NCBI RefSeq assembly: GCF_024519315.1
Contig: NZ_JANIIC010000019.1
Coordinates: 62,001 to 126,000, forward strand
Reading direction: 5' to 3'
DNA length: 64,000 nucleotides
Source of the DNA: Streptomyces malaysiensis subsp. samsunensis
GTDB taxonomy: Bacteria; Actinomycetota; Actinomycetes; Streptomycetales; Streptomycetaceae
Shown: positions 55,757 through 62,369 of the stretch, piece after piece
Numbering within the stretch: the stretch's first letter is position 1
Layout of the letters: every line of letters begins with the position of its first letter
The notes under the pieces: generated by a model
Databases searched by the model: none
The model's input: the letters and a program-made list of their open reading frames with translations, nothing else
What the model was told of the DNA's origin: nothing
Position numbers and translations under genes: made by a program

Positions 55757-55873
55757 TCGTCGCTTGACGCGGGCACCGGCAGTCGGTTGCATGCTTTCTG
55801 TGATCGCTCACCCGGGTTCAACTGCCAATTTCCGTACGTCACGTACGACCCGCAGGGCCACAGGAACCGCACC

Positions 55874-57595
55874 GTGGACCCGGTGATCGTCGCCGGGGCA
55901 GGCCCGGTCGGCCTCACCCTGGCCCTCGCCCTCGCGCACCTCGAAGTGCCCGTCATCCTGCTGGACGAGTCCACGGGCGGTGAGGAGAGCCGTCTCGCCC
56001 AAACGGTCGTGCTGCGCCCGGACACCGCCGGTCTCCTGGAGCGGCTGGGCTGCCGGGTCACCGCCCGTACGCGACCGTGGACCGGCTGGCGCACGATGCG
56101 GCGGCGGCAGCTGGTGCGGCAGGTGCCGCTCATCCCCGGCAGCCTCTTCGGCGGCGAGCGCGGCGCCGTCGGCTGGGACGGCGGCCTTACGGAGGCCATC
56201 GGCTCCCCCGACGGCGACGGGCCCGAGGACGCCTCGGCAGCGGCGCCGACGCCCTCACCGCTGCATCTGCCCCAGCACGAGCTCTCCCGGGCGCTGCGGG
56301 GCTCGCTGGCCGCCATCGGCGACGAGGACCTCGTCCGCATCATCTCCGGAACCCGGATCGACGACCTGGAGCAGGACGACCACGGGGTCGGGGTGCGCAC
56401 CCGGGGCTCCCAGGCCACCTGGTGGCGGGGCAGCTATCTGGTGGGCTGCGACGGGCCGCGCTCGACCGTCCGCAAGCTCCTGGGCGTGCGCTTCCCGGGC
56501 CGTACGGCCGTGGAGCGGCACGCCGTCGCGGCGCTGCGCGCCGAACTCCCCTGGCCCGGCGAGGCCGTGCTGCACCGCTCCCCGCCCTGGCGCAGCATCG
56601 ACGCGGAGGTGACCGCCAGGCCGCTGCCGCGCGGCCTGTGGCGGGTCGACTGGCTGCTGCCGCCCGGCCGCGATCTCGTCACCCCCGATGCCCTGATGGT
56701 GCGGGTGCGCGACACCCTCACGGGGTGGTGCGGGGATTCCGAGCCCCCCTATGAGCTGCTGGACACCGGCGTGCACACCGTGCACCACCGGCTCGCGCTG
56801 CGCTGGCGCGTCGGCCGCGCCTTCCTGGCCGGGGACGCTGCCCATCTGCTCGGCGCGCTCGGCACCCAGGGGCTCGAGGAAGGGCTGCGGGACGTCGACA
56901 ACCTCGCCTGGAAGCTCTCCCTCGCCTGGCACCACGGGGCCTCGGAGGCCCTGCTGGACAGCTATCAGGCGGAGCGGCGCGGAGCCGTGAGCGCCCGCCT
57001 TCGCGCCGCGGACCAGGCGCTGCCGCTGGTGCGGGCGGCCGGCGGCTGGAGCGCGGTACGGCGCACCGTGCGGCCCGGCGGGGCGCGCGGGCACGACGCG
57101 CTGCTCACCGACGGTCACCTCGGGCAGGGCCCGCTCGGCGCGCCGCCGGTCTACGACCGGTCGCCACTGGCCCCCGTCACGCCGCCGGACGGCTCGGTCA
57201 CGGTGGGCACGGCGCCCGGGGCGCCGGTCGCCGATGTGCCGGTGACCGCGCCGGACGGCTCGGTCGTACGGCTACGGGAGCGGCTCGGCCGGGAGCTGCT
57301 GGTGGTGTTGATCGCCCCCGGCACCGGGGTGTGGGACCGCCGCCACTGGATGCGGGCCGGGCTGATGCCGCGGCTCGCGGCGGCCGTCGCGGCGCTGCCC
57401 TTGCGCACCGAGCTGCTGGTCGCCGAGGCGTATCCGGGAGCCCCGGCGCACACCGTGCTGCTGGTGCGGCCGGACGGCCATCTCGCCGCGGCGCTGTCCG
57501 GGGTGCGGCCGGGCGCGCTGTACGCGTGCGCGGACGCGGCCCGGGGCGGGAACACGGCCAGAGGCGTACCGGCGGAGGCGAGCGCGCGGCAGTAG
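55874..57595 (+). CDS. FAD-dependent aromatic-type monooxygenase
   Basis: The 573-residue flavoprotein of the PheA/TfdB type has the FAD-binding VIVAGAGPVGLTLALALAHLEVPVILLDE at the N-terminus. GCDGPRSTVRKLLG and GDAAHLLGALGTQGLEEGLRDVDNLAWKL lie mid-chain. The C-terminal thioredoxin-like domain follows, with weaker conservation. Such enzymes hydroxylate phenols or polyketides; the substrate is unknown. GTG at 55874 has AGGA nine bases upstream and gives the FAD motif immediately. No biosynthetic cluster surrounds it, so it could be a stand-alone detoxifying or tailoring enzyme. Confidence 0.87.
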   Translation: MDPVIVAGAGPVGLTLALALAHLEVPVILLDESTGGEESRLAQTVVLRPDTAGLLERLGCRVTARTRPWTGWRTMRRRQLVRQVPLIPGSLFGGERGAVGWDGGLTEAIGSPDGDGPEDASAAAPTPSPLHLPQHELSRALRGSLAAIGDEDLVRIISGTRIDDLEQDDHGVGVRTRGSQATWWRGSYLVGCDGPRSTVRKLLGVRFPGRTAVERHAVAALRAELPWPGEAVLHRSPPWRSIDAEVTARPLPRGLWRVDWLLPPGRDLVTPDALMVRVRDTLTGWCGDSEPPYELLDTGVHTVHHRLALRWRVGRAFLAGDAAHLLGALGTQGLEEGLRDVDNLAWKLSLAWHHGASEALLDSYQAERRGAVSARLRAADQALPLVRAAGGWSAVRRTVRPGGARGHDALLTDGHLGQGPLGAPPVYDRSPLAPVTPPDGSVTVGTAPGAPVADVPVTAPDGSVVRLRERLGRELLVVLIAPGTGVWDRRHWMRAGLMPRLAAAVAALPLRTELLVAEAYPGAPAHTVLLVRPDGHLAAALSGVRPGALYACADAARGGNTARGVPAEASARQ

Positions 57596-57676
57596 CGGCA
57601 GTAGCGGAGAAGTGGGGGGAGAGCGGGGCGACGGGGCACGCGCGGGCGCGTCCGGACGTGCGGCCCGTCTCCGGGA

Positions 57677-57718
57677 GCGCGGCCCGCCCCCTGGCGTGCG
57701 CGGCCCGCCCCCTGGCGT
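57677..57718. repeat. Two tandem 21-base repeats
   Basis: Two exact copies of a 21-base unit beginning GCGCGGCCCG and ending CCTGGCGT lie head to tail, with the start of a third. They lie between the monooxygenase gene and the cysteine dioxygenase leader and do not code for anything recognised. Confidence 0.7.
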
Positions 57719-57782
57719 GCGTGGTCCGGGCGCGAGCCGGTGAGGTTGACCTTCCTTTCCGCCTCATGATTCACTTCGCACC

Positions 57783-57872
57783 GTGACCGACACATGCTTG
57801 CCTCGCTTCTGGCGGAGGGTCCATCTGGACCTGGTCCGCTACGCGGGATGTGTGTGTAGTCCGTCCTGTTGA
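57783..57872 (+). CDS. Cysteine-rich leader peptide of the cysteine dioxygenase operon
   Basis: This short frame is not a normal gene but looks like an attenuator peptide. Starting at GTG 57783 it codes 29 residues that contain PRFWRRVHLDLVRYAG and end CVCSPSC; four cysteines, three in the last seven residues. RRxHLDLxR is the conserved core of known actinobacterial leader peptides upstream of sulfur genes, in which ribosome stalling at scarce cysteine controls the message. No ribosome-binding site precedes the GTG; a TTGACC element at 57746 suggests a transcript starting at or near this codon (leaderless). TTG 57798 is an alternative start. A hairpin and the cysteine dioxygenase gene follow. 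Confidence 0.62.
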   Translation: MTDTCLPRFWRRVHLDLVRYAGCVCSPSC

Positions 57873-57886
57873 TCCAGTTCTTTTCC

Positions 57887-57903
57887 GCGCGGTACGGCCG
57901 CGC
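57887..57903 (+). terminator. Candidate attenuator hairpin after the leader peptide
   Basis: Six-base arms GCGCGG and CCGCGC with loop TACGG start 15 bases past the leader stop and 31 bases before the cysteine dioxygenase start; CCCTTTC follows. It could be the terminator stem controlled by the ribosome on the leader, though competing antiterminator pairing was not computed. Confidence 0.45.
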
Positions 57904-57933
57904 CCCTTTCGCGATCTCTCAGGACGGTTCTCT

Positions 57934-58509
57934 GTGCCCGACGTACGCACTTCCACCCCCGGTCCCGTGGGCCCTTCGACGGACCTCATCACGGACCCCG
58001 CATCCGGCGCCGGCGCTCCGCCGAGCGCCGCGGAACTGCTCGACTTCGCCCGCCGGACCGCCGCCGACGCCGAGCTCGTGGCCTCGCTTCCGCTCGATCC
58101 GGAGGGCCGCACCTGGCTGCGTCTCGACGGGCCCGGCGGCAGCGAAGCCTGGCTGATCGGCTGGCCTCCCGGCACCGGCACCGGCTGGCACGACCACGGC
58201 GGCTCCCATGGCGCCTTCGTCACGGCGGCGGGTGAGCTCGATGAGCAGTCGCTCGCCGCGCGTCTCCCCACCGAGGGCTGGAAGACCCTGGAGCTGGCCG
58301 ACGGCGTGGACCGCGAGCGGCGGCTGCCCGCCGGGCAGGGCCGGGCCTTCGGATCGCATCATGTGCATGAGGTGATCAACCCGTCCGACACCGAGCATGC
58401 GGTGTCGGTGCACGCCTACTATCCGCCGCTGCCGCTGATGCGGCGTTACAGCCGCACCGGTCGGACGCTGCGGCTGGAGCAGGTCGAGCGGCCCGAGGAG
58501 TGGGGGTAA
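57934..58509 (+). CDS. Cysteine dioxygenase
   Basis: This cupin iron enzyme oxidises L-cysteine to cysteine sulfinate. In the 191-residue protein the three iron ligands are His86 and His88 (GWHDHGG) and His145 (HHVHEV). An arginine in TWLRLDG fits the Arg-type (cysteine) rather than the Gln-type (3-mercaptopropionate) family. The active-site cysteine crosslink of animal enzymes is replaced, as in other bacteria. GTG at 57934 has AGGACGG upstream. The preceding leader peptide and hairpin suggest control by cysteine. The rhodanese gene follows by five bases. Confidence 0.88.
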   Translation: MPDVRTSTPGPVGPSTDLITDPASGAGAPPSAAELLDFARRTAADAELVASLPLDPEGRTWLRLDGPGGSEAWLIGWPPGTGTGWHDHGGSHGAFVTAAGELDEQSLAARLPTEGWKTLELADGVDRERRLPAGQGRAFGSHHVHEVINPSDTEHAVSVHAYYPPLPLMRRYSRTGRTLRLEQVERPEEWG

Positions 58510-58514
58510 TCGCG

Positions 58515-58901
58515 ATGGGCACGACCAAACGGAGCGTGGACGAGCTGCTGGCCGAGGCCCGCGAGGAACTCGACCGGTTGGAGCCCCTCGACGCCGCGGC
58601 GGCGCAGGTCGAGGGCGCGCTGCTGGTGGACATACGGTACGCGGCGCTGCGGGAGCGCGACGGCACCATCCCGGGGGCGCTGATCGTCGAGCGGAACGAG
58701 CTGGAGTGGCGGCTCGACCCGCAGTGCGACCACCGGCTGCCCGAGGCCACCCATCACGGTCTGCGGGTCGTGGTGGTGTGCAACGAGGGCTACGCGTCCA
58801 GCTTCGCCGCCGTCTCGCTGCGCCGGCTGGGACTGGAGCGGGCGACCGATCTGATCGGCGGCTTCCAGGCATGGCGTGCGGCGGGCCTCCCGGTGCGCTG
58901 A
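58515..58901 (+). CDS. Rhodanese-like sulfurtransferase
   Basis: The 128-residue single rhodanese domain starts RSVDELLAEAREELDRL and contains LLVDIRYAALRERDGTIPGALIVERNELEW. The active-site Cys89 lies in VVVVCNEGYASSFAA; the loop size suits thiosulfate- or persulfide-type sulfur. It is coupled to cysteine dioxygenase (five-base gap after its stop), so the pair probably handles cysteine-derived sulfur. A possible GGGGG site precedes the ATG. Function in sulfur transfer is established for the family; the specific substrate is not. Confidence 0.88.
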   Translation: MGTTKRSVDELLAEAREELDRLEPLDAAAAQVEGALLVDIRYAALRERDGTIPGALIVERNELEWRLDPQCDHRLPEATHHGLRVVVVCNEGYASSFAAVSLRRLGLERATDLIGGFQAWRAAGLPVR

Positions 58902-59272: not shown

Positions 59273-59884
59273 TCAGAGGTCGGGGAGATGGTGCTCCAAC
59301 AGCTCCGGATCCTCTCCCTCCTCCTCCAGCGCGCGCCGCACCACCCGCAGCGCCAGCCCCTCGGAGTAGCCCCTACGGGCCAGCATCCCGGCGAGGCGGC
59401 GGATCCGCTTCTCCCGGTCCAGGCCCCGGGTGGCCCTCAGCTTGCGCTCGACCAACTCCTGCGCGGTCCGCTCCTCCTGATCGGCGTCGAGCTGCCCCAC
59501 GGCATCGTCGATCAGAGCAGAGTCCACGCCCTTGGTACGCAGCTCACGGGCGAGCGCACTCCGGGCGAGCCCCCGGCTGTGGTGCCGGGACTCCACCCAT
59601 GCCCCGGCAAACGCCGCGTCGTCGATCAGACCGACGTCCTCGAACCGGGACAGCACCTCCCGCGCCGCGTCATCGGGGATGCCCCGGGTGCGCAGCGCGT
59701 CCGCGAGCTGCTTACGGGTGCGCGGGGTCCCGGTGAGCAGGCGCAGGCAGATTGCCCGCGCCTGCTCCTCCGGGCCGAGCGGCGACCCCTGCTCGGCCCT
59801 CGACGAGGAGGGGGCGCCGCTGTCCGGACGGTCCGGGCGCTCCGGACGGCCTGGGCCGTCCGGCCATTCGGTCCGCCGCGTCAT
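59273..59884 (-). CDS. recX: Recombination regulator RecX
   Basis: RecX binds and limits RecA filaments. The 203-residue protein has a low-complexity Pro/Gly/Arg-rich N-terminus (about 1-38) and then three helical repeats: ARAICLRLLTGTPRTRKQLADALRTRGIPDDAAREVL, FEDVGLIDDAAFAGAWVESR and RGYSEGLALRVVRRAL. The ATG at 59884 lies three bases after the recA stop, so the genes are cotranscribed and possibly translationally coupled. Production of RecX together with RecA is normal in actinobacteria. Confidence 0.94.
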   Translation of the reverse strand: MTRRTEWPDGPGRPERPDRPDSGAPSSSRAEQGSPLGPEEQARAICLRLLTGTPRTRKQLADALRTRGIPDDAAREVLSRFEDVGLIDDAAFAGAWVESRHHSRGLARSALARELRTKGVDSALIDDAVGQLDADQEERTAQELVERKLRATRGLDREKRIRRLAGMLARRGYSEGLALRVVRRALEEEGEDPELLEHHLPDL

Positions 59885-59887
59885 GGA

Positions 59888-61027
59888 TCAGCTCTTGGCC
59901 GCGGCCGTCTTGGCCGCCTTCGCCCCGGACTTGGCAGCCGGGGCGGCCACGGCCTTCACCGGTGCCGCGGCGGTCACGCCCGCGGCACCCGTCGCGTCCG
60001 CGGTGGGCCCGGCGGCAGCCGGGTCCTGGGGCTTCACCCCGATGCCGAGCTTTTCCTTGATCTTCTTCTCGATCTCATTGGCGAGATCGGGGTTGTCCTT
60101 CAGGAAGTTGCGAGCGTTCTCCTTGCCCTGGCCGAGCTGGTCGCCCTCGTAGGTGTACCAGGCACCGGACTTGCGGACGAAGCCGTGCTCGACGCCCATG
60201 TCGATCAGACCGCCCTCGCGGCTGATGCCCTGGCCGTAGAGGATGTCGAACTCGGCCTGCTTGAAGGGCGGTGCGACCTTGTTCTTGACGACCTTGCAGC
60301 GGGTACGGTTACCGACCGCGTCGGTGCCGTCCTTGAGGGTCTCGATGCGACGGATGTCGATGCGCACCGACGCGTAGAACTTCAGCGCCCGGCCACCGGT
60401 CGTGGTCTCCGGGGAGCCGAACATCACGCCGATCTTCTCGCGCAACTGGTTGATGAAGATCGCGGTGGTCTTGGACTGGTTCAGCGCGCTGGTGATCTTG
60501 CGGAGCGCCTGGCTCATCAGCCGGGCCTGGAGGCCGACATGGGAGTCGCCCATCTCGCCCTCGATCTCCGCGCGCGGCACCAGGGCGGCGACGGAGTCGA
60601 TGACGATGAGGTCGAGAGCGCCGGAGCGGACCAGCATGTCCACGATCTCGAGCGCCTGCTCGCCGTTGTCCGGCTGGGACAGGATCAGCGAGTCGGTGTC
60701 CACTCCGAGCTTCTGCGCGTAGTCCGGGTCGAGGGCGTGCTCCGCGTCCACGAAGGCGACCGTGCCACCCGCCCGCTGGGCGTTGGCCACCGCGTGCAGG
60801 GTCAGGGTCGTCTTACCGGAGGACTCGGGGCCGTAGACCTCGACCACCCGGCCACGCGGCAGACCGCCCACGCCGAGGGCGACGTCGAGAGCGGTCGACC
60901 CGGTGGGGATGACCTCAATCGGGTCGTTCGGCCGGTCGCCCATGCGCATCACGGCGCCCTTGCCGAATTGCCGTTCAATCTGTGCGAGCGCGGCGTCGAG
61001 GGCCTTCTCGCGGTCGGTTCCTGCCAT
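59888..61027 (-). CDS. recA: Recombinase RecA
   Basis: RecA catalyses homologous pairing and triggers LexA self-cleavage. The 379-residue protein has the expected start [29 protein letters not shown], Walker [15 protein letters not shown] and Walker [16 protein letters not shown]-binding loop L2 is [29 protein letters not shown] Lys/Ala-rich C-terminal tail ([35 protein letters not shown]-like) is typical of Streptomyces. ATG at 61027 has GGTGGGA upstream; the frame is open 144 bases further but lacks a ribosome-binding site. The upstream region carries an SOS box and a DnaA-box sequence. Confidence 0.98.
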
Positions 61028-61114
61028 GGGTCCCACCCGGTTTGCTTGAGTCGATCGCTTCACGTCCAAGACGCTAGCGCCTGCCACTGACAAGCGGCCC
61101 TGACGTCCCCGGCC

Positions 61115-61123
61115 TGTGGATAA
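61115..61123 (-). promoter_or_regulatory. DnaA-box sequence in the recA leader
   Basis: TGTGGATAA on the plus strand is the exact reverse complement of TTATCCACA. Together with the flanking CCT prefix and CCT suffix it shares the 14-base word CCTGTGGATAACCT with the left half of the 12434 palindrome. It lies between the recA SOS box and the recA start. Confidence 0.55.
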
Positions 61124-61141
61124 CCTGCCGGTCCTCCATAA

Positions 61142-61167
61142 GAATGGATGTTCGATTTTTGTGTCAA
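61142..61167 (-). promoter_or_regulatory. recA promoter with LexA box
   Basis: On the minus strand TTGACA (61167-61162) is a consensus -35, followed by an A-rich run and GAACATCCATTC (61153-61142), the actinobacterial recA SOS box. A good -10 is less clear (candidates around 61144-61138). LexA bound here would block RNA polymerase. The -35 overlaps the last codons of the upstream 61164 gene. Confidence 0.8.
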
Positions 61168-62369
61168 CCACGCCGCGCCAACGCGGCGCGCATCCGCGCG
61201 AGGGCCGAGGCCCCGCGCCGGCGCGTGCGCCCGTGCACCCGGGGATCGTCGGTCACGTCGTAGCGCTTGATGTACGCGCCGAGGAACGCTTGCAGCGTCG
61301 CGGTCGCCGGAATCGCGATCAGCGCACCCACCGCGCCCAGCAGCGCGGTGCCCGCTATCACCGATCCGAAGGAGACGGCCGGGTGGATGTCCACCGTCCT
61401 GGCGGTGATCCTCGGCTGGAGCAGATAGTTCTCGAACTGCTGGTAGATCACGACGAAGATCAGGACCCAGAGCGCGTACCAGGGCTCTATGGTGAACGCG
61501 ATCAGCATCGGCAGGGCCCCGGCCAGGTAGGTGCCGATGGTCGGGATGAACTGCGAGATCAGCCCCACCCACACGGCGAGCGCCGGGGCGTAGGGCACGC
61601 CCAGGGCCTCCAGCAGGATGTAGTGGGCGACACCGGAGATCAGCGCCATCAGCCCGCGGGAGTAGATGTAGCCGCCGGTCTTGGCGACCGCGATCTCCCA
61701 GGCGCGCAACACCTCGACCTGCCGGGTCGGCGGCAGGACCGAGCACAGGGCGCGGCGCAGCCGGGGTCCGTCGGCGGCGAAGTAGAACGCGAACAGAGTC
61801 ACCGTCAGCGTCTTGAACAACCCGCCGAGCACCTGCGTGGAGACGTCCAGCACATTGTCGGCGCTGTTCTTGACGTAGCTCTGGAGCCAGTCGGAGTGCA
61901 GCAGGCTGTCCTGGATCTCCAGACGCGACAGATGCGTGTGGAACGTGTCGTTGATCCAGCTGACCACGTCGTCGAGGTACTTCGGGAAGTCCTGAACCAT
62001 GGTCATGATCTGATCGGCGAGCATCGAGCCGAGCAGAGTGAAGAAGCCCGCGGCGCCGATGAGGATGGCGAGAAAGACCAGCCCCGTGGCCAGTCCCCGG
62101 CGCATCCCGCGGGCGGCCATCCGGTCCACGGCCGGTTCGATCGCGAGTGCCAGGAAGAACGCGATCAGGATGTTCAGCAGGAGCCCGGTCAGCTGGTCGA
62201 AGGCCCAGGTCGCCAGGCGATAACAGGCCACCAGGGCGAGCGCGAGCACCATGGCACGCGGCAGCCAGCGCGGCATGCGGGCGGGGGGTTGCGGGGGATC
62301 CGAGGAGGCCCGAGGGGCGCTCGGGGTGTCGTCGGCGTCGGAGGAGAGGGTCTCTTCGGTCGGGGCCAC
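61164..62369 (-). CDS. AI-2E family membrane transporter
   Basis: The 401-residue polytopic protein has seven or eight hydrophobic helices and the family blocks [69 protein letters not shown] and [31 protein letters not shown]. The family was named for an autoinducer-2 exporter, but many members are Na+/H+ exchangers or of unknown substrate. GTG at 62369 is chosen, giving [13 protein letters not shown]; its ribosome-binding site is weak. It lies upstream of recA, on the same strand, after the DUF3046 gene. Confidence 0.85.

Follow-up and report, generated by a model that had tools for sequence, protein, structure and literature searches.

What should a cysteine-sensing leader of the starvation type do when the gene behind it degrades cysteine: turn that gene on when cysteine is low, or when it is high? 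The question is raised by a locus in the window, the 64,000-nucleotide stretch of Streptomyces malaysiensis subsp. samsunensis DNA analysed here, where a 29-codon, Cys-rich frame stands before a cysteine dioxygenase (CDO) gene and a rhodanese gene, an arrangement recorded by a first-pass annotation and borne out by the frame itself, by Pfam matches and by conservation. We lean, with some caution, toward a leaderless cysteine-sensing leader that controls CDO translation, with CDO induced at low cysteine. This reading names the exact bases and codons involved:

57746–57751, + strand: candidate −35 element TTGACC of the leader promoter (TTGAC in 91 of 95 unique upstream regions)
57770–57775, + strand: −10-like hexamer TTCACT (positions −13, −11, −10, −9 and −8 relative to the start codon conserved)
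57783–57872, + strand: leader peptide gene, 29 codons plus TGA (NF042934 at 33.8 bits; same place in 106/110 loci; codon table)
57810–57841, + strand: predicted P1 hairpin, 13 pairs, across codons W-R-R-V-H-L-D-L-V-R-Y (838/845 cells paired in 65 unique rows; window fold)
57849–57851, + strand: first conserved Cys codon, Cys23, at +9 from the His (Cys in 94/95 unique leaders)
57855–57857, + strand: second Cys codon, Cys25, at +11, the family-wide position (TGT in 95/95)
57861–57868, + strand: anti-Shine-Dalgarno CCGTCCTG, codons 27–29, Pro-Ser-Cys (exact reverse complement of 57920–57927)
57871–57874, + strand: predicted P2 helix, 5′ strand GATC (TGATC/GATCA in one group, TTCGC/GCGAA in another)
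57887–57903, + strand: predicted P3, a variable inner hairpin of seven pairs, one of them G-U (window fold)
57913–57916, + strand: predicted P2 helix, 3′ strand GATC (same group comparison as the 5′ strand)
57920–57927, + strand: CDO Shine-Dalgarno CAGGACGG (nearly invariant; AGGACGG starts 12–13 nt 5′ of the start codon in 103/106)
57934–58509, + strand: CDO, start GTG (PF05995, E 2.2e-46; zero Cys codons in 106/106 orthologues)
58515–58901, + strand: rhodanese-domain protein (PF00581, E 1.3e-12)

By comparison of sequences, the leader peptide (VTDTCLPRFWRRVHLDLVRYAGCVCSPSC, read as an open frame from GTG at 57783 to TGA at 57872 on the + strand) is real. Our principal set comprised 110 CDO loci, the best 80 of at least 539 matches plus the best 30 of a second search in which 146 of 150 genomes matched; it holds some near-duplicates, and one locus is the window itself. 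The leader lies ahead of the orthologous CDO in 106 of these 110 best-matching loci, with L088, L123 and L130 lost to contig ends and L061 keeping the 3′ half alone. It is also present in all of a further 24 loci (23/23 counting those that were new), in 9/9 weaker-matching loci of the genus (L353–L361) and in 27/31 loci from other genera of the family; conservation of the peptide at homologous CDO loci, a check proposed in the first-pass annotation, was thus found. It was not found at L341, L344, L345 and L347 among those 31 loci, or at two odd loci of its own genus, L351 (CDO 52% identical) and L352 (CDO match from residue 47 on). The 95 unique leaders share an unvarying set of residues (W, one R, V, H, D, L, R and Y) and all stop at TGA; 85 of them retain the last Cys. 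Three of the 522 start-bearing frames in the window carry at least three Cys in their last seven codons, and the leader is the sole + strand case. A frame conserved throughout the genus with an invariant core does not look like chance. At L061, the 3′ half of the leader (MDLARYAGCVCRPSC) and all downstream parts are kept and the 5′ half is swapped for unrelated sequence: a foreign stretch (L061:2780–2910), perhaps a transposon end, abuts ATGGACCTC, and the Cys codons, anti-Shine-Dalgarno and Shine-Dalgarno are retained. This locus is possibly a natural knock-out of the leader.

The peptide had been credited with the core of actinobacterial sulfur-gene leaders; that core is confirmed, with the correction that the family is already described, as NCBIfam NF042934 (‘putative leader peptide’, cis_reg_atten). 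In profile searches, the window leader passes this model (33.8 bits against a cut-off of 27), as do three of four further leaders of the CDO type, the other scoring 23. The Ms5788A model NF042933 gives the window peptide only 16.5 bits, below its cut-off of 45. Ten NF042934 matches exceed the cut-off in the leader’s own genome (11.05 Mb), the CDO leader included, and matches at E ≤1e-4 occur in 25/25 genomes of the genus that were searched, this one included, and are absent from 14/14 control genomes. By eye, the relatives precede sulfite reductase, MoaD, sulfurtransferase, monooxygenase and transporter genes; most stand before sulfur-assimilation genes, which agrees with the first-pass remark that similar leaders are tied to cysteine synthesis.

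Downstream, a frame of 100–200 codons begins no more than 28 nt from the CDO stop, in most cases overlapping it, in 104/106 loci, and the rhodanese gene is probably co-transcribed with CDO. The CDO protein (57934–58509 in the window) lacks any cysteine in 106/106 orthologues and could therefore be synthesized during cysteine starvation. Upstream of the leader, 55787–57595 encodes an FAD monooxygenase akin to rifampin/aromatic hydroxylases, and beyond the CDO region the minus strand carries frames that, judged by eye, resemble recX and recA (59273–61171). An Rfam scan of 57550–58100 gave one 12-base match, far under threshold and outside the leader, and assigned no family.

The promoter region suggests how the leader begins. 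TTGAC sits 36–37 nt ahead of the start codon (GTG or ATG) in 90 of the 91 regions that have it, and the conserved −10-like hexamer leaves 7 nt up to the start codon; similar promoter spacings are reported for leaderless S. lividans genes in the cited part of that study (PMC8079986). A strict sigma-70 scan returned no promoter site. From this spacing, which fits in 90/91 regions, transcription probably starts at or beside the GTG, so that a leaderless leader, earlier raised as a possibility, can be graded probable. Close to the end of a ‘methionine’ leader placed before metNIQ in S. lividans (MSTTSDRTPATEATTTPGARCMCRRMCAF; PMC8079986, Table 4) lie three Cys codons, and judged by these it may be another cysteine leader.

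Codon choice separates the two upstream Cys positions. The +11 codon is TGT in 27/27 leaders of other genera as well, and TGT is the first Cys codon after the motif in 76/79 non-CDO relatives, against a background, taken from 223 long frames at CDO loci (among the at least 539 matches), of 75 TGT among 345 Cys codons. This preference in both CDO leaders and their relatives marks +11 as the likely sensor position of the family. The +9 Cys, judged by the same alignments, is an addition found in most but not all CDO leaders; the orthologous leaders L338–L340, L342, L343, L348 and L349 have the +11 Cys alone. Pro is CCG in 87/92 helix codons and Ser is TCC in 88/91, compared with 46% and 42%, respectively, in CDO genes of the same loci. 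Arg AGG appears in 84/95 leaders but makes up 1.8% of Arg codons in CDO genes, a bias that P1 pairing would explain. In the unique non-CDO relatives, however, Asp (63/63), Arg (63/63) and Leu (61/63) are kept with varied synonymous codons. Because D-L-x-R persists there although only 48% of the P1-equivalent pairs form, the peptide itself seems to be selected too.

How might the leader reach the CDO gene? The last leader codons contain CCGTCCTG, which matches the CDO Shine-Dalgarno CAGGACGG base for base as its reverse complement, and in predicted folds covering the anti-Shine-Dalgarno codons to just beyond the CDO start, at least 5 of these 8 bases pair with the Shine-Dalgarno in 103/106 loci. 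Comparison among loci establishes the leader, its core codons and this complementarity; the fold, like the leaderless start, is predicted. Across 65 unique rows, 497 of 520 cells of the anti-Shine-Dalgarno helix are paired; none of the 520 shows a double change, and leader-side variants go uncompensated. Support for this helix therefore comes from conservation and codon bias instead of covariation. P1 has a single pair with a double change, in three rows. The group difference in P2 was not counted as formal covariation, being partly a register shift. The window region folds better than its shuffles (z −2.45; 2 of 200 shuffles as stable). A 6-bp hairpin annotated earlier is present at 57887–57903, but it has seven pairs and is the inner, variable stem within a larger structure. 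As the control element it gives way to a likelier candidate: sequestration of the CDO Shine-Dalgarno by the leader’s own last codons, via a conserved outer helix that would join the leader end to that site.

Modelling of ribosome positions indicates where along the leader this helix would yield. A 28-nt ribosome footprint was set unpaired and the cost of freeing the Shine-Dalgarno core was computed for 94 unique leaders of the 106, duplicates and gaps over 120 nt being left out. With no ribosome on the leader this cost has a median of 8.5 kcal/mol; a ribosome placed at Cys23 lowers it to 7.3, at Cys25 to 3.1, at the third Cys to 2.7 and at the stop to 2.9. Opening increases more than 5-fold in 40/94 leaders at the first Cys, 88/94 at the second Cys and 88/94 at the stop. 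Even once the helix is loosened, the model leaves the core free with a probability near 1% (medians 0.7–1.2%), so kinetics must help. In a control with the mycobacterial Ms5788A leaders (21 of 24 loci; L296 was not parsed, and L305 and L316 had no Shine-Dalgarno motif), the median cost drops from 4.9 to 3.1 kcal/mol already at the first Cys, falling in 16/21 and rising in 5/21. Compared with these costs, the CDO leader looks like an attenuator whose opening point is shifted past the first Cys codon. Among leaders of other genera (17 of 18 modelled with script-chosen start codons; L340 had no Shine-Dalgarno core), the tail pairs with the Shine-Dalgarno in L322, L326, L327 and L329, with the cost dropping at +11 in L327 and L329 and already at +9 in L322 and L326; such pairing is absent from 13 of these 17 loci. 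A kinetic traffic model run in 27 settings favoured low cysteine in 9 and high cysteine in 14 and was flat in 4, leaving the sign unfixed.

A further idea, that the CDO leaders invert the usual design, came from a first look at L004 and a few others that seemed to hold the anti-Shine-Dalgarno under the stalled ribosome. The corresponding geometry comparison covered 77 of 86 leaders (7 of them CDO, among which L249 had a wrongly chosen start), the other 9 having lacked a Shine-Dalgarno core or exceeded 300 nt in distance. It was dropped, because only 11 of 70 non-CDO leaders had a Shine-Dalgarno paired mainly with the leader.

We propose the following sequence of events. When no ribosome is near the leader end, the last codons would pair with the CDO Shine-Dalgarno and CDO would be shut. 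A ribosome on the TGT Cys codon (57855) or beyond would cover those codons and loosen the helix. Slow decoding at low Cys-tRNA would prolong this open state, and CDO would be induced alongside sulfur assimilation. The enzyme itself would matter only after cysteine has risen, as an overflow valve. That ribosome position on the Cys codons is the switch for CDO is what we infer; the direction of the response and the valve role are the most uncertain points.

Published expression data bear on this direction. We take SCO5772, beside recA, to be the S. coelicolor orthologue of the window CDO, and SCO3035 is presumably the second CDO of that species. In the cited part of a study of S. coelicolor exposed to H2O2, 28 genes rose, including those for sulfonate uptake, cysNDC-H-I, a thiosulfate sulfurtransferase, cysM, metN and metI, together with the ‘hypothetical’ SCO5772 (8.0-fold) and SCO3035 (6.54-fold); none of the 28 rose in a mutant of a redox-sensing two-component system, which the authors credit for the response (PMC4991794). 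SCO5772 is elsewhere listed as a putative cysteine dioxygenase (PMC3087709, cited part). For strain KKT on feather, the corresponding part of the report gives two CDO genes as basal to 48 h and up 21.65- and 6.36-fold at 96 h, with sulfate-assimilation genes down at 24–48 h and variably up at 96 h and cysM unchanged (PMC12763843). Strain SCUT-3 on feather is reported to raise cdo1 50.2-fold and cdo2 8.3-fold (PMC7181669, in part). The rise of SCO5772 with the sulfur-assimilation genes favours induction at low cysteine, against intuition, and the leader would offer a cause for the co-induction of these two ‘hypothetical’ genes with sulfur assimilation. The H2O2 and KKT data fit control shared with assimilation, whereas the SCUT-3 data fit induction by cysteine-rich food; the KKT cells were keratin-grown too. 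All of these changes are at the mRNA level, and other causes are possible.

The strongest competitor keeps the parts of this switch and reverses its sign: scarce Cys-tRNA would hold or kill ribosomes at the first Cys codon (57849) with the site still shut, and ample cysteine would let them reach Cys25 and the stop, turning CDO on. We consider it unlikely, though well short of negligible. It suits the role of the enzyme, and it draws on the modelled first-Cys stall, at which the site stays closed (median 7.3 kcal/mol), to loosen at later positions; in the mycobacterial control the same stall already loosens 16/21. This competitor would also account for retention of the extra +9 Cys in 94/95 leaders, although some orthologous leaders have the +11 Cys alone. 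The kinetic model agrees with it in 9/9 settings with fast rescue of stalled ribosomes but favours low cysteine in 6/9 settings without rescue. Induction of cdo1 (50.2-fold) and cdo2 (8.3-fold) on feather medium speaks for it (PMC7181669, cited part), and co-induction of CDO with sulfur assimilation under H2O2 speaks against it (PMC4991794, cited part). Low-cysteine induction has difficulties of its own: two feather studies report CDO rising on keratin, a cysteine-rich substrate, as the opposite sign would have it; a ribosome at the first Cys leaves the Shine-Dalgarno shut in most leaders, with more than 5-fold opening in only 40/94; and the pairing is missing in 13 of 17 modelled other-genus loci that keep the leader.

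Other readings change the mechanism. An arrest by the nascent H-x-D-L-x-R peptide, stalling the ribosome with cysteine as the signal, or at the stop, in the manner of TnaC with tryptophan, seems improbable to us. The constancy of Asp, Arg and Leu in non-CDO relatives (63/63, 63/63 and 61/63), with varied codons and only 48% of P1-equivalent pairs formed, would suit it, as would the TGA stop in 95/95 leaders; but TGA ends most long frames at CDO loci in any case (174 of 223), five other-genus leaders end in TAG, and the marked bias toward TGT argues for codon decoding. Less probable again is transcription attenuation or Rho-dependent polarity with Shine-Dalgarno pairing as a secondary feature. 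The published responses are, in the cited parts, changes in mRNA (PMC7181669, PMC4991794), and 59 of 70 modelled non-CDO relatives do not have their Shine-Dalgarno mainly paired with the leader; the family may thus rely on a different route. Against this, a search of 57600–58000 found no intrinsic terminator-like site, and the conserved element ends on the Shine-Dalgarno. Hardly credible, finally, is the view that the frame is accidental or marks the beginning of a longer CDO. The open CDO frame does extend back to 57850, but the leader and CDO lie in different frames with a TGA in between, the leader–CDO spacing ranges over 61–263 nt and yet the peptide core is invariant, and conservation already contradicts both versions.

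More broadly, the window type is one of several Cys-rich leaders found before CDO genes. The second Streptomyces CDO, CDO-B (L207 in the window’s own genome), is preceded at 14/14 loci (L207–L220) by a poly-Cys leader whose sequence is unrelated; these leaders (L207 at G000:C11:2890–4067) end in runs such as RCCCSSC or RCSCCCSSC plus a stop, with TTGACA upstream in 14/14, and three of the peptides matched no NCBIfam model at E ≤1. The Ser-Ser-Cys ends of 8/14 CDO-B leaders were tried as a second anti-Shine-Dalgarno and set aside, since modelling of 8/14 gave no consistent effect. In 64 diverse CDO loci, start-bearing frames within 380 nt upstream were compared with antisense, farther upstream and farther antisense controls: frames with at least three Cys in the last ten codons occur at 22/64 loci versus 0, 1 and 0 of 64, and frames with at least two at 29 versus 5, 9 and 5. 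Without the 14 CDO-B loci the count is 8/50, and at one of the eight, L169, another frame is the likelier leader. At 4/4 presumed Mycobacterium CDO loci a frame closes with CC(C)R and one or two further residues; in modelling, L203 opened at once, L206 changed little and almost no change was seen in L204 and L205. At L171, L184, L192 and L223–L225, CDO is preceded by NF042934-like frames, most of them containing just one Cys. In one genus of another actinobacterial family (L182, L195), the CDO leader ends MRCCC and is followed, just past the stop, by CTCCGG, which complements CCGGAG, the CDO Shine-Dalgarno; a ribosome modelled at the second Cys lowers the opening cost, clearly for L182 and a little for L195.

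These frames suggest that Cys-codon leaders have been repeatedly recruited to CDO genes, although recruitment is not universal, as most diverse loci outside CDO-B have no such frame. The earlier view that catabolic use is unusual calls for qualification: such a leader is the rule for this CDO in Streptomyces, and other Cys-rich leaders of unrelated sequence precede some other actinobacterial CDO genes. A wider proposal, in our judgement tentative and somewhat doubtful, is that Actinobacteria repeatedly and independently placed Cys-codon leaders on CDO, such that a cysteine starvation signal turns on CDO together with cysteine synthesis and pre-arms an overflow valve for cysteine overshoot. If the window leader itself acts as proposed, ribosome-read control by cysteine would reach beyond synthesis of the amino acid to its destruction.

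Among the titles and abstract openings searched, a set outside which Canestrari 2020 fell, no description of a leader peptide on CDO was found, and the closest systems resemble the window leader in different respects. In a classical transcription attenuator, an intrinsic terminator lies between leader and gene; none was found at 57600–58000. TnaC of the tryptophanase operon shares the placement of a leader peptide ahead of an amino-acid-degrading gene; TnaC differs in arresting at its own stop in response to free tryptophan and in controlling Rho. Canestrari et al. reportedly described mycobacterial polycysteine leaderless short ORFs in 2020 as cysteine-responsive attenuators, and their sequestration of the Shine-Dalgarno by the leader is matched in the window type by prediction (103/106 folds), without covariation. 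In both the Ms5788A (NF042933) leaders and the CDO leaders, the Cys tract or tail is predicted to pair with the Shine-Dalgarno region of the next gene, but the paired stretch lies 12–19 nt after the first Cys codon in CDO leaders and mostly about 2–14 nt after it in Ms5788A leaders, in which stalling is said to unmask the Shine-Dalgarno (PMC13236596, PMC9031893, cited parts). In the cited part of Seliverstov et al. (2005), cysteine leaders are predicted in Mycobacterium, Propionibacterium and Bifidobacterium, and the LEU element of actinobacterial leuA is like the window leader in that its run of regulatory codons pairs with the Shine-Dalgarno, but differs in responding to leucine, serving a biosynthetic gene and having a proposed pseudoknot (PMC1262725). 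Finally, with its NF042934 relatives the window leader shares a score above the cut-off, the H-x-D-L-x-R core, TGT for the +11 Cys and a sulfur gene downstream; unlike them, it precedes a cysteine-degrading gene and has the extra +9 Cys and a Pro-Ser-Cys tail complementary to, and predicted to pair with, the downstream Shine-Dalgarno. Overall, the window leader represents a version of the cysteine attenuators known from Actinobacteria, here set before a gene of catabolism.
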